DNA of 31,331 bases from a virus: positions 1 through 31,331 of IMG/VR virus record IMGVR_UViG_3300005732_000027; one strand, given 5' to 3'. The position numbers were made by a program, and so were the translations under genes. Under the pieces are notes generated by a model. The model saw only the letters and a program-made list of their open reading frames with translations. It searched no databases and had not been told where the DNA came from. The number at the start of each line of letters is the position of its first letter. Within the stretch, counting starts at the first letter, position 1. This document shows positions 9,744 to 22,917 of this stretch, piece after piece.

Positions 9744-10054
9744 CGCTTAGAAGGTCGGCATGTAATCTCACCGACTAAAGCTCCGGGCTGTGTGCCTACC
9801 CGGGACACCCGAAAGTTTCTTGAGCGGAAAACGACTGGCCTTCCAAGGCTTGGAATTTGAGTCAGGTCGGAAAGTAAGACTTTTACTTCGATGTCACCTT
9901 CATCAGCAAAGCCGCCTTCCATAAGCTCCCGGGCAAATTGAGACTCTGAGACAAGTGCTGTGACGGTCTCACCGTCAATGATAATGCTTACACCGTAGTC
10001 ACTGCGGTGCTGCACAAAAGCATCCTTGATGCTATTTGCTATCGCTGTCTGCAT
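9740..10054 (-). CDS. Head-tail joining/attachment protein, 104 aa
   Basis: The protein is 104 residues with MQTAIANSIKDAFVQHRSDY at the N-terminus, then SIIIDGETVTALVSES and FRVSRVGTQPGALVGEI near the C-terminus. A short N-terminal helix followed by a beta barrel ending with VSRVG-QPGALVGEITCR fits FII-type head-tail joining (head closure) proteins. It follows the small Lys-rich head gene and overlaps it by 23 nt. Convergent overlap with the plus-strand regulator gene at the 3' end means read-through on either strand would produce antisense RNA. Confidence 0.55.
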   Translation of the reverse strand: MQTAIANSIKDAFVQHRSDYGVSIIIDGETVTALVSESQFARELMEGGFADEGDIEVKVLLSDLTQIPSLGRPVVFRSRNFRVSRVGTQPGALVGEITCRPSKR

Positions 10055-10253
10055 CTACCTTCTTGGCTGCTTTCTTTGATGCTTTCTTGGCTGCTTTCTT
10101 TTTTGGTGCTGCCTTCTGAATTTCGGCAATCTTGGCTCTCCCGCTGGTTAGCAACTGAGCGGCGACAGAATTGTCTACGTTCTCAATAATGTCGCCAACT
10201 TCCACGGGCTGGCCCTTAACGAAACAAGATTCCGTGATTTCCAAGTTCTTCAT
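10032..10253 (-). CDS. Small head protein with Lys/Ala-rich tail, 73 aa
   Basis: The first 45 residues (LEITESCFVKGQPVEVGDIIENVDNSVAAQLLTSGRAKI) look like a small beta/alpha module, as in the small head-completion proteins encoded after the major capsid gene ('V-KG-PVEVGDII, A--L---G-A'). The last part is a run of Lys and Ala blocks (AAPKKKAAKKASKKAAKK) ending in an acidic DADSDSK. The basic tail could bind DNA inside the head or at the portal. The ATG is 13 nt after TTTTTTGAC, and the gene lies just behind the terminator of the capsid gene. Confidence 0.6.
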   Translation of the reverse strand: MKNLEITESCFVKGQPVEVGDIIENVDNSVAAQLLTSGRAKIAEIQKAAPKKKAAKKASKKAAKKVDADSDSK

Positions 10254-15993: not shown

Positions 15994-16459
15994 TTAATCC
16001 TTTTATTTTGATTTTTAAACCTGATAGGTTTTTTAAACATTTATCCTTTGCTTCATCGGTCACTACATCATTTAGAATTACGTTTTTTATTGCCGCCATG
16101 ATTTCTTGACCAGCCCTTTCCACATCTTCGACAGGAATAAGCTCACCCCGGGTTCTGGCATTGGCAAGTTCTAGCTTGTCAGCTTCTTCTTTAGTTCGTC
16201 TTAATTGCTGCTTTTTCAGCTCAGTAGGGTCAGCAGTGTCACTATCCCATTGATTCACTTTTCGCTCTTGCAGATAGGCAATATAAGCCCGGACACTAGG
16301 CCAAAGGTCATATTGCCCCCGTCCTGACTTCTGAATAATGCCGTCAGCAGCTAATTGCTGGACACGAACAGAAGTAAGATTGAAAAGCTTTGCAAGTGTT
16401 GAGACTGGAACAGTTGGTGATTTCCCGTTGTCTTTTGCAATATTATCCTTCTTCGCCAT
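15980..16459 (-). CDS. terS: Terminase small subunit, Nu1-like, 159 aa
   Basis: Recognises the phage DNA for packaging. Residues of about 18-65 hold a winged helix-turn-helix (PVSTLAKLFNLTSVRVQQLAADGIIQKSG), as in Nu1. A charged coiled coil (KKQQLRRTKEEADKLELANARTRGELIPVEDVERAGQEI) follows, the standard layout in this family where the LANARTRGELI block is nearly universal. The start overlaps the stop of the Mom-like gene as TAATG. The stop overlaps the start of the large subunit. Confidence 0.85.
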   Translation of the reverse strand: MAKKDNIAKDNGKSPTVPVSTLAKLFNLTSVRVQQLAADGIIQKSGRGQYDLWPSVRAYIAYLQERKVNQWDSDTADPTELKKQQLRRTKEEADKLELANARTRGELIPVEDVERAGQEIMAAIKNVILNDVVTDEAKDKCLKNLSGLKIKIKGLSEQG

Positions 16460-17286
16460 TATTCTTTAGAAGGATGGAGCGCATCGGTCGGAGTTGCACC
16501 GCCCTTTCCAGACTGGAGGTCTGGCGTGTCACTGGTTTCACTTGATGCGCGTTTTTTCGATTTGCCTTTATACATCCCCGCTCCCATTTCGTCAATCTTT
16601 GAAAAAGGTAATATTGGGACAGTCAAACGCTCTTTTGCTTTAGGGTTTAAAAAATAAAGGTATCTCAATTGAAACCCCGGAATAGGCACAAATCCCGCCG
16701 CAGCATAAGCTTTCATTGAAGCTGCACCCGTTGCGCTATTGTTTCCACCTTTTGTCATTGTGGTGCGGCTTATAACTTTTTGGGCTTGTTGTTGTTGCTG
16801 TTTACTTTTTCCGTCCGTCAAAGACATGCGGCTAAATTTCTCTCCAGTTGGAGCTGCCCACATTTGATTGTTCTTTTTAATTGCTGTTAAAAAAAAACCG
16901 CTTGCCCTGTAAATAGTCCCATCACCGCATTGCGCTCCATCCGCAAAAGAAATAACCCATTCGATATGAGGGTAAGTTTTGCGAATAATACGCATCGCAA
17001 CAGAAATTGCTCTTGATTCACTATTTCTCGGCAGCCAATCAGCAAAAGCCATTCGATTTAGCTCAATGAAACCGTTCCAACTAGTGTCTCGGACTAGCCC
17101 TTGAATTTTTCGTTTATCAAGAGACGGGCCAAATTGCATTGCCCCCCCGCATTTTCCATCAAGAAAAACTCCAAAATGAAGTTGCGAATTTTGAACGACC
17201 TTGCCGGAGTAGTGGCATGACTTTATAATTCTGGAGGCATCCTTGCTTGAAATTGGTTTTACAATAATCTTCTTTGCTTTGCTCAT
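16459..17286 (-). CDS. Mom-like DNA adenine modification protein, 275 aa
   Basis: Resembles phage Mu Mom, a GNAT-fold enzyme that turns adenine into N6-methylcarbamoyl-adenine in phage DNA and so protects it from restriction. Residues 24-27 are CHYS, then LHFGVFLDGKCGGAMQFGPS (36-55), IELNRMAFADWLPRNSESR (74-92), WVISFADGAQCGDGTIYRASGF (110-131). The HY pair, RNSESR block, FAD segment and TIYRASG tyrosine match the conserved core of Mom homologues. The C-terminal part has a polyGln stretch (residues about 158-162) and a basic KGKSKKRASS region. ATGA overlap with the ParB-like gene and TAATG overlap with terS put it in the packaging operon. Confidence 0.8.
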   Translation of the reverse strand: MSKAKKIIVKPISSKDASRIIKSCHYSGKVVQNSQLHFGVFLDGKCGGAMQFGPSLDKRKIQGLVRDTSWNGFIELNRMAFADWLPRNSESRAISVAMRIIRKTYPHIEWVISFADGAQCGDGTIYRASGFFLTAIKKNNQMWAAPTGEKFSRMSLTDGKSKQQQQQAQKVISRTTMTKGGNNSATGAASMKAYAAAGFVPIPGFQLRYLYFLNPKAKERLTVPILPFSKIDEMGAGMYKGKSKKRASSETSDTPDLQSGKGGATPTDALHPSKE

Positions 17287-20848: not shown

Positions 20849-22150
20849 TTAAACTTCCCGGAAATAAATTTTGTCCGACTCTCTCAAAATCGGAAGCGTC
20901 AAGCCCGAGCGTCCTGTGTGCCTGTCTTTCTTGATTGTGATCCCTGTAACAGAGAGATAGTCCTCTTTCTTTTCATCCAGTTCTTGAACCAAGGAAAGAA
21001 CAAGGTCTGCATCTTCATTTATGGACGTGGCATATTTTAGATGACCTTCTTTGTTTTGCTGAGATAGCACAAAGATGAGCAAGTCTAGCTCTTTTGCGAT
21101 ACCCTGCAGAGCATGAGAAATCTGCGTCAGTTCCTGCTCTTTACTGCTCGCATCAGCGACTTGGATCAGTTGGAGATAGTCGATCCCAACCACTCTCACG
21201 CCATGGCGCTTGTGCGCTCGCCGTATCATGGTGATGATTTGCCCGATTTTTGGAGAAACTGGCTCTTCAAAATACAGAGGCATGTCTTTAATTGCGCTGT
21301 AAGCCTTTCTGAAGGCGTTTAGCTCTTCTTTCGATACCGTTGTCCTATTTTGCTTCCGAGCGTATGAGAGCGGATCTGAGAGCAATTCAGACGGCAATCT
21401 GCCATATGTCCCTATGAACCTTTGCATGATTTGCTGGGCAGTCATCTCACAGCTTATCATCAAACACGGTGTCCCGGTGCTGGCGATGTCGGTCAGGAAC
21501 TGCCCAGCAAGCAATGTCTTCCCGCTCCCGGGATAGCCTGCAATTACGCAATACCTTGGTGTTTTAAAACCGCGCAACGCCGCTGAGAGCGTAGACAGTG
21601 AGACTTCAAAACCATTCGGCTGAGATTTCCCGTTGACCAAATCAGCAAATTCATCCGCAACAGCTTTGAGCAATGCCGCTCGGTCTCGGGTCGTCTCAGT
21701 GTCGGTTGCTGACTCTGCCACTTCTGTCATCGGTTGCCCAGTCGCTTCGATGAATCCAGTTTTGTCAGTCATGTCAGCAGCTCTTTCGGCAAGGTTCTTA
21801 GCTGCATCAATTGCCAGCCGCCTACTGTGACAATCACGCATTGCATCCACGCTTTGCCCAAAATGGCTAATGGTGGGCGCATTTACTAAAATTTGAGCAA
21901 TATCAGCCACGCCGTCAGTTCCGTCAATCATGCCGCGCTGCTTCAGTGCTTCAACGGTCAAGGACAAGTCCCCTTGGACATCAGCCGGGAGCTTGTTGCT
22001 CGTTGCAAATTCGTAGAGCTTTCGGTAGTGCTGCGAGTAAAACCATTCTGGTTGGATCGGCTTATCATCCCAGCCGGGTAGCTTTTGCATTACCACACTG
22101 AGAACATATTTTTCAGCTTCCAAGGCTGTCGGTTTTTGAATTTCATTCAT
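20849..22150 (-). CDS. dnaB: Replicative DNA helicase, DnaB family, 433 aa
   Basis: Unwinds the phage DNA at the fork. The N-terminal domain (residues about 1-150) begins ALEAEKYVLSVVMQ, as in DnaB. The RecA-like core has a Walker A GYPGSGKT (205-212), a Walker B VVGIDYLQL (D324), and the downstream LSQQNKEGHLKYATSINEDADLVL block. It is DnaB-type and lacks an obvious primase. The start overlaps the stop of the initiator gene as ATGA. This is the usual initiator-helicase pair, the initiator being the likely loader. Confidence 0.92.
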   Translation of the reverse strand: MNEIQKPTALEAEKYVLSVVMQKLPGWDDKPIQPEWFYSQHYRKLYEFATSNKLPADVQGDLSLTVEALKQRGMIDGTDGVADIAQILVNAPTISHFGQSVDAMRDCHSRRLAIDAAKNLAERAADMTDKTGFIEATGQPMTEVAESATDTETTRDRAALLKAVADEFADLVNGKSQPNGFEVSLSTLSAALRGFKTPRYCVIAGYPGSGKTLLAGQFLTDIASTGTPCLMISCEMTAQQIMQRFIGTYGRLPSELLSDPLSYARKQNRTTVSKEELNAFRKAYSAIKDMPLYFEEPVSPKIGQIITMIRRAHKRHGVRVVGIDYLQLIQVADASSKEQELTQISHALQGIAKELDLLIFVLSQQNKEGHLKYATSINEDADLVLSLVQELDEKKEDYLSVTGITIKKDRHTGRSGLTLPILRESDKIYFREV

Positions 22151-22917
22151 AGCATTTCTTTGGTCAGGATTCTTGTCGGTTTACTGGCTGGTTGCTCAGG
22201 CAAATCCAGCCACTTGTGATTTTTTAACCATAAATGCAGACCGGGAACAAAACTCCCGCCGTCTTTCGTCCAATCGTCGCACCTGTTCCATGCTTCGATG
22301 GCGTTGACGATTGTCTCCTTGTCGGGCCTGTCTGATTTTTTAATTTTTTTCCACTCATCGGCGACCTGCTTCCGGCTGCTTCGCCGCCTTGCTCGTTCTG
22401 GAGCAGAGTCCCAGACTGCACGCAGCAAGTCCTTGTCCAACTCCTCCGCATTCGCGGAGTTTGTAGGTATATTTTCTTTTCCTTTCTTTTCCTTTCTTTT
22501 CTTTTCGTTTCGCTGATGGTTACCCATATGGTTAACCTTATGGTTATCCATATGGTTTTTTTCCTTTATTTCATCAAGGTTTTCGGCTGGCTTAACTTTT
22601 TTCGGACGACCGCCAAGTTTGCCTTTTTCACGCTTCGCCTTCACTGCTGCTTCCGACTCTACCGGGTAGAATTTTACCACTAGGTTTTCACCTTCAAAAC
22701 CATATAGTTTGCTACTGGTTTTCACTTCTTCCTCGGTCACTCCGGCAAGCTGTTGCCATTGCCGGCTTTTCCAGTTCTTGCAGCCTTCAATGACTCCGCT
22801 GTTCTCCTGTGTCGCACACCAACCAAGCAAGGCAATCCATGTTGCTCTTTCTGTCGGATCTGCACCAATAAACTCAACACCGCGTAAAATGTCGGTGTGG
22901 ATGTTCAAGTAATTCAT
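22147..22917 (-). CDS. Replication initiator/helicase-loader-like protein, 256 aa
   Basis: The N-terminus MNYLNIHTDILRGVEFIGADPTERATWIALLGWCATQENSGVI followed by KNWKSRQWQQLAGVTEEEV is a winged-helix domain I remember from Verrucomicrobia phage replication proteins. A central low-complexity linker from about residue 95 contains GRPKKVKPAENL, the repeats NHMD NHKV NHMG NHQR (residues 121-136) and a Lys-rich run, then a C-terminal SRKQVADEWKKI and WLKNHKWLDLP domain typical of helicase loaders (DnaT/DnaD-like). The linker is encoded by the candidate origin iterons, as in lambda O. The stop overlaps the dnaB start. Confidence 0.75.
   Translation of the reverse strand: MNYLNIHTDILRGVEFIGADPTERATWIALLGWCATQENSGVIEGCKNWKSRQWQQLAGVTEEEVKTSSKLYGFEGENLVVKFYPVESEAAVKAKREKGKLGGRPKKVKPAENLDEIKEKNHMDNHKVNHMGNHQRNEKKRKEKKGKENIPTNSANAEELDKDLLRAVWDSAPERARRRSSRKQVADEWKKIKKSDRPDKETIVNAIEAWNRCDDWTKDGGSFVPGLHLWLKNHKWLDLPEQPASKPTRILTKEML
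22466..22557 (-). other. Candidate replication origin: four 12-bp iterons plus purine tract
   Basis: On the minus strand four tandem 12-bp units start at 22557, 22545, 22533 and 22521: AACCATATGGAT, AACCATAAGGTT, AACCATATGGGT and the weaker AACCATCAGCGA. Each of the first three is nearly a palindrome (AACCAT/ATGGTT). They are followed at 22466-22509 by an A/G-only strand of about 44 bases made of repeated GAAAAGAAAGG blocks and ending ATATACC, a likely unwinding element. A CTCCGC/GCGGAG hairpin lies at 22444-22459. All lie inside the initiator gene, the layout of the lambda origin. Function is inferred from architecture. Confidence 0.6.

Follow-up and report, generated by a model that had tools for sequence, protein, structure and literature searches.

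To our knowledge, most metagenome phages have no known replication origin. The locus described here raises the question of whether an origin can be read from a phage initiator gene itself. The window, which is the whole stretch of DNA that was analyzed, is a 31,331-bp virus record, and a preliminary description of its sequence had proposed a lambda-style origin embedded in the replication initiator gene. With a probability of about 0.85, the segment at 22444-22557 is the phage replication origin, embedded in the linker-coding part of the phage's own initiator gene. The anatomy, the conservation, the DNA-level constraint on repeats and tract, and the gene neighborhood were seen directly, and from them we infer binding, unwinding, and helicase recruitment.

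The initiator gene and its neighborhood

The genes and protein domains of the locus are as follows.
22147-22917, minus strand: replication initiator gene, from the open reading frame and its translation (256 aa)
Initiator residues 1-107, about 108-150, and about 155-256: N-domain, linker, and C-domain, respectively
22588-22917, minus strand: N-terminal domain, predicted by AlphaFold2 as a winged-helix-like DNA-binding fold, then a basic helix and GKLGGRPKK
20849-22150, minus strand: DnaB-like replicative helicase (433 aa), with a 4-bp overlap with the initiator gene

The C-terminal half of the initiator resembles the PHROGs families 'replication initiation protein' and 'primosomal protein' (E 1e-10 to 1e-11), and the helicase gene matches phrog_19 (E 2.4e-54) and Pfam DnaB_C (E 2.4e-34). 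The replication and recombination block runs in the order Erf-like annealing protein, exonuclease VIII, DNA repair exonuclease, initiator, and DnaB-like helicase. A DnaB-like gene follows the initiator in 24 of 82 loci; in ten further loci the next gene is a DnaC-like loader (seven), a primase-helicase (one), a DnaB-like helicase (one), or unknown (one). Elsewhere in the window, a Mom-like DNA modification protein is encoded at 16459-17286 on the minus strand (phrog_1384, E 8.4e-51), which suggests that the phage DNA is modified.

The N-terminal domain had been described as a winged helix, and the AlphaFold2 prediction (pLDDT 90.9) agrees. The predicted fold is a bundle of helices plus a beta hairpin, arranged like a winged helix, and a basic helix follows (helices 21-37, 51-58, 62-66, and 86-101; strands 72-75 and 78-81). 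The best PDB folds found by Foldseek were RepA-type plasmid initiators including 4pt7 and 5kbj, among them DNA-bound RepA of the pSK41 type, as weak matches with E of 0.16-0.66. The N-domain had no sequence match in the PDB and none in a Pfam search of the protein. In BFVD it matched phage 'replisome organizer' proteins and many DUF1376 proteins. The low-confidence model of the C-domain had no recognizable fold match.

The repeat array in the window

The repeat units within the linker-coding DNA are listed below.
22546-22557, minus strand: iteron 1, AACCATATGGAT
22534-22545, minus strand: iteron 2, AACCATAAGGTT
22522-22533, minus strand: iteron 3, AACCATATGGGT
22510-22521, minus strand: iteron 4, AACCATCAGCGA, degenerate, with the left half only (AACCAT) retained

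Direct reading confirmed the four 12-bp units reported in the initiator linker (minus strand, 22557-22510), the fourth in degenerate form, and translation confirmed that they are in frame as NHMD NHKV NHMG NHQR. Iterons 1-3 are each one mismatch away from the 12-bp palindrome AACCATATGGTT. With up to two mismatches, this palindrome occurs at four sites in the 31-kb window, namely iterons 1-3 and 22698-22709; shuffled sequence gave a mean of 0.94 sites, and four were reached in 2 of 100 shuffles. The identity at lag 12 over units 1-4 is 27/36 by direct count, and the best identity at lag 11 or 12 among 60 order-2 Markov sequences was 23. The TRF score of the array is 63. Because a period-12 array with a higher score (68) is present at 10060-10100 in the same window, the iteron array alone is not exceptional. 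It is modestly unusual within the window, and the case therefore rests on the relatives.

The array at 10060-10100 consists of TTCTTGGCTGCT repeated 3.4 times and codes for AAPKKKAAKKASKKAAKK, the Ala/Lys-rich C-terminal end of a small protein (10032-10253, minus strand). It looks like a repeat at the protein level.

Conservation of the repeats as DNA

Among deposited phages there was no DNA-level match, and a genome scan with the single initiator protein gave one distant relative. A profile search with the N-domain only gave 80 loci, which were pooled with others into 69 unique genes. The relatives are IMG/VR contigs together with three cultured Akkermansia phages (Chambord, Chantilly, and DTMo-2021a). 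Retention of the repeats in close relatives, which the preliminary description had expected, was found in L002-L006. The 48 nt of the array show 1-3 changes between distinct sequences, against 65-126 differences over the 771 positions of the whole genes. A chance tandem duplication with no function would be compatible with the second period-12 array and its slightly higher TRF score. This explanation is nevertheless the least probable of those considered here, at odds of a few in a hundred, since relatives with differences at about 15% of gene positions retain the array and such repeats recur superfamily-wide at the same protein position.

The repeats could also be a feature of the protein, a flexible charged linker of short tandem peptides with no role as DNA. 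The window taken alone gives this explanation some ground, for the four units are in frame (NHxx four times) and a count of four sites compares with a mean of 1.64 in synonymous shuffles (fraction 0.057), which falls short of significance. In the family, spacing and reading frame vary and the DNA is kept. Recurrence of pyrimidine-containing 5-mers was counted in 32 non-redundant linkers against synonymous-codon shuffles that keep the protein. At lag 11, 116 recurrences were observed versus 17.1 (sd 5.2), and at lag 12, 207 versus 66.2 (sd 11.2). The counts at lags 22 and 24 were 62 versus 10.9 and 135 versus 45.5, lag 23 was also well over the synonymous null, and recurrence was low in the N- and C-domain controls. 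Since a lag of 11 is out of frame, it is the DNA of the repeats and not the encoded peptide that is preserved, with a spacing of about one helical turn.

The same palindrome is moreover read in two frames among relatives. In L010/L032 and L011/L034, AACCATATGGTT is read as AAA CCA TAT GGT (KPYG), compared with AAC CAT ATG G (NHM) in the window. Linkers with AACCAACTGGTT and AGCCATGTGGTT are found in L007 and L008, whose N-domains are 85% identical and whose C-domain is another one, and the Akkermansia phages carry palindromes of the form AACC-N6-GGTT, for example AACCAACGTTGGTT. When up to one mismatch is allowed, the 69 linkers, many of which are related, contain 105 AACC-N4..6-GGTT sites versus 31.9 expected under synonymous shuffling. 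A 7-mer two-frame test is weak in the family (34 of 69 versus 23.5 expected), and the lag analysis is the better test. The expectation that spacing stays constant while repeat number and sequence vary largely held. The number is variable (L084, L092, L096, and L088); the spacing is 11 or 12 bp and not always 12. Tandem repeats preserved at the DNA level are thus found in the linker-coding DNA of the initiator gene, which is one trait of iteron origins embedded in an initiator gene (lambda, P22, and pSK41 type).

The purine tract and the hairpin

Two further elements lie beyond the repeats.
22472-22506, minus strand: purine-only strand of 35 nt, candidate unwinding element
22444-22459, minus strand: hairpin CTCCGCGAATGCGGAG, 16 nt (DNA fold -7.4 kcal/mol, z -4.05)

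A purine run 3' of the iterons is present as described, at a shorter length than the reported 44 bases or so: it is 35 nt, or about 40 with one C. It is the longest purine run on either strand of the window, the runner-up being 14. The AT-richest 40 nt of the initiator gene overlap the iterons. The tract encodes a Lys/Glu linker, which again could be taken as a demand of the protein. The choice of codons indicates otherwise. All-purine Arg codons make up 38/51 in the tract versus 112/539 elsewhere in the same family genes (P 1.3e-14), and all-purine Gly codons make up 74/76 versus 252/575 (P 9e-22), where the sequences are related, so that the P values overstate independence. Since purine-only codons are chosen for Arg and Gly, the tract is not explainable by a preference for Lys and Glu. 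The purine tract is selected at the DNA level across the family. A role of repeats and tract as peptide only is already refuted at the family level, and for the window it is very unlikely, though marginally less so than chance duplication.

The small hairpin reported beyond the purine tract was recovered as CTCCGCGAATGCGGAG with the folding energy listed above. It is retained among the closest relatives only. As a general element of the family the hairpin was rejected, as it beats 90% of control windows in just 7 of 32 linkers. Right after the purine tract, L020, L036, L079, and phage P22 (L127, 4841-4985) have a run rich in C (CACCCCCTTACCCCC or one like it), in some cases with GGGGG as a partner. 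It is possibly a priming signal.

Initiator-binding repeats of iteron plasmids can also regulate. The iterons might accordingly bind the initiator mainly for control of its own gene or of copy number, as operator or incompatibility sites, with replication starting elsewhere, and the near-match at 22698-22709 inside the initiator gene could then be a fifth site. That candidate iteron was rejected, being absent in L108 and L115 and only partly kept in L109. The repeats also lie over 350 nt into the gene, away from its promoter, and a DNA-level purine tract follows them in the whole family, whereas regulation needs none. A mainly regulatory role is therefore improbable, with a chance below one in ten, and ranks ahead of the two explanations weighed above.

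Proposed mechanism

For an origin at 22444-22557, the following course of initiation can be proposed. The N-terminal winged-helix domain would bind the 12-bp palindromic iterons, which lie about one helical turn apart, and initiator dimers would fill the palindromes, so that a nucleoprotein complex may assemble along a single face of the DNA. Melting of the adjoining purine/pyrimidine tract by the complex would follow, and the C-terminal domain, a putative loader domain in the terms of the preliminary description, would recruit the phage DnaB-like helicase, the product of the next gene.

A change of GC skew at the site had been anticipated and was not found. The cumulative skew declines steadily across the site, its turning point lies near 29 kb, and the third-position skew has no switch. 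The skew test is weak and uninformative here because nearly all genes run one way.

Comparison with known systems

The lambda-like anatomy put forward in the preliminary description was borne out. The linker of a two-domain initiator contains iterons followed by an A/purine-rich tract and then by a hairpin, and the same order is found in lambda O (L103), where experiments have established ori in the middle of the gene (PMC7466680). The systems share iterons placed centrally in the initiator gene, an AT-rich/purine strand (AAAAGAAAAAAGAAAAGA in lambda, the longest purine run of O), and a hairpin. They differ in that the lambda iterons are 18 bp long at 20-24 bp spacing, compared with contiguous 12-bp units here, and in that lambda encodes the loader P whereas the window phage encodes a DnaB-like helicase. 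Comparison by hhalign showed no homology with lambda O for either the N-domain (probability 0.2%) or the C-domain (0.1%), and the initiator has no match to Pfam Phage_rep_O (PF04492), which lambda O matches at 5.7e-36. Because neither protein domain aligns with O, membership of the initiator in the lambda O family is not supported.

Gene 18 of P22 (L127) has an annotated rep_origin embedded in the initiator, with repeats, an A-rich tract, and a hairpin in that order, and the DnaB-like helicase gene 12 follows directly. It differs in its GGTAAA-type repeats and is annotated as O-like; the likeness is one of layout. In pSK41, four Rep boxes central in rep are the binding sites of the N-terminal winged-helix domain, and the ori-encoded linker is dispensable as protein (PMC5703833). 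The natural chimera pPR9 has its N-domain plus origin swapped and its C-domain kept (PMC5703833). The locus shares with pSK41-type RepA_N systems the boxes inside the initiator gene, and its N-domain has the weak fold matches to 4pt7 and 5kbj given above. It differs in that pSK41 is a plasmid and not a phage, and in that the pSK41 CTD contacts the host DnaG primase. The best reading is that the present system would function in the manner of lambda O/ori, of P22 gene 18, and of pSK41 rep. It is likely a new family that follows a known strategy, with a layout common to many related phages with different repeat sequences.

A second family with DUF1376-like N-domains

A scan of the collection for the doubled motif led to other replication genes with DUF1376-like N-domains. 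These N-domains appear to be distantly related to those of the window family (hhalign 91%, E 1e-6, from a small alignment that is itself under the Pfam cut-off). When members were fetched by N-domain, 73 unique ones showed the same layout with 11/12-bp lags and several repeat types; the scan query held motif-selected members, so the frequency of the AACC type is biased and the lags of the other types are unbiased. The DUF1376-like phage initiators (L128-L207) share with the window family the linker position, the 11/12-bp repeats, and an A-rich tract, and some members use the window family's AACCATATGGTT or AACCCAA repeats. They differ in having extra repeat types (TGCCACGGCA, CATATG) and a tract, GAAAATGAAAATG, that is not purine-only. 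The linkers of L106, L110, L114, L119-L123, L126, and L128-L207 show 11/12-bp repeats of AACCTNNNGGTT, TGCCACGGCA, AACCCAA, or CATATG followed by GAAAATGAAAATG tracts.

A wider proposal would take both families as one superfamily, in which the origin lies in the linker-coding DNA, with repeats set one helical turn apart (11 or 12 bp in any frame) and a few half-site codes (AACC, CAAGC, GCCAC) that switch between lineages. We propose this tentatively, at slightly less than even odds. If true, it would define phage replicon compatibility groups that are readable from sequence alone. For the window family, which includes the cultured Akkermansia phages, the origin would be readable from the initiator gene itself.

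Repeat specificity and domain exchange

Mapped on the N-domain tree, the repeat classes need 12 changes versus 39 when shuffled, a clustering that near-copies inflate, and the C-domain classes give an equal number. Near-identical N-domains go with different repeats, AACCCAAGC in L071/L077 versus CTTCAAGCC in L078/L079/L084, with CAAGC as the only common part. Strict matching of N-domain and repeat is not supported, as the tree does not separate N-domain from C-domain association and two repeat types stand on near-identical N-domains. The tandem repeats on these almost identical N-domains are AACCCAAGCGGA in L071/L077 and CTTCAAGCCCCC in L078/L079/L084/L092, around the core CAAGC, and the contrast between the two groups is a test of repeat recognition provided by nature. 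With their many repeat variants, related N-domains lend themselves to the study of how winged-helix initiators choose DNA and how phage replication specificity changes.

In L028 and L029 (from the records of L008 and L007), the C-domain is unlike that of the window and the neighboring helicase keeps an identity of 88-91%. The C-domain appears from these sequences to have been exchanged without the helicase. Since the helicase is retained despite another C-domain, a simple pairing of C-domain and helicase is uncertain. In L012-L018 and L213-L217, the window's C-domain (about 55%) is joined to an unrelated N-domain, and the linkers of L013, L016, and L017 carry CCACCTCCGTGCCACC-type repeats before a GGAGAAGGAGAA purine tract.
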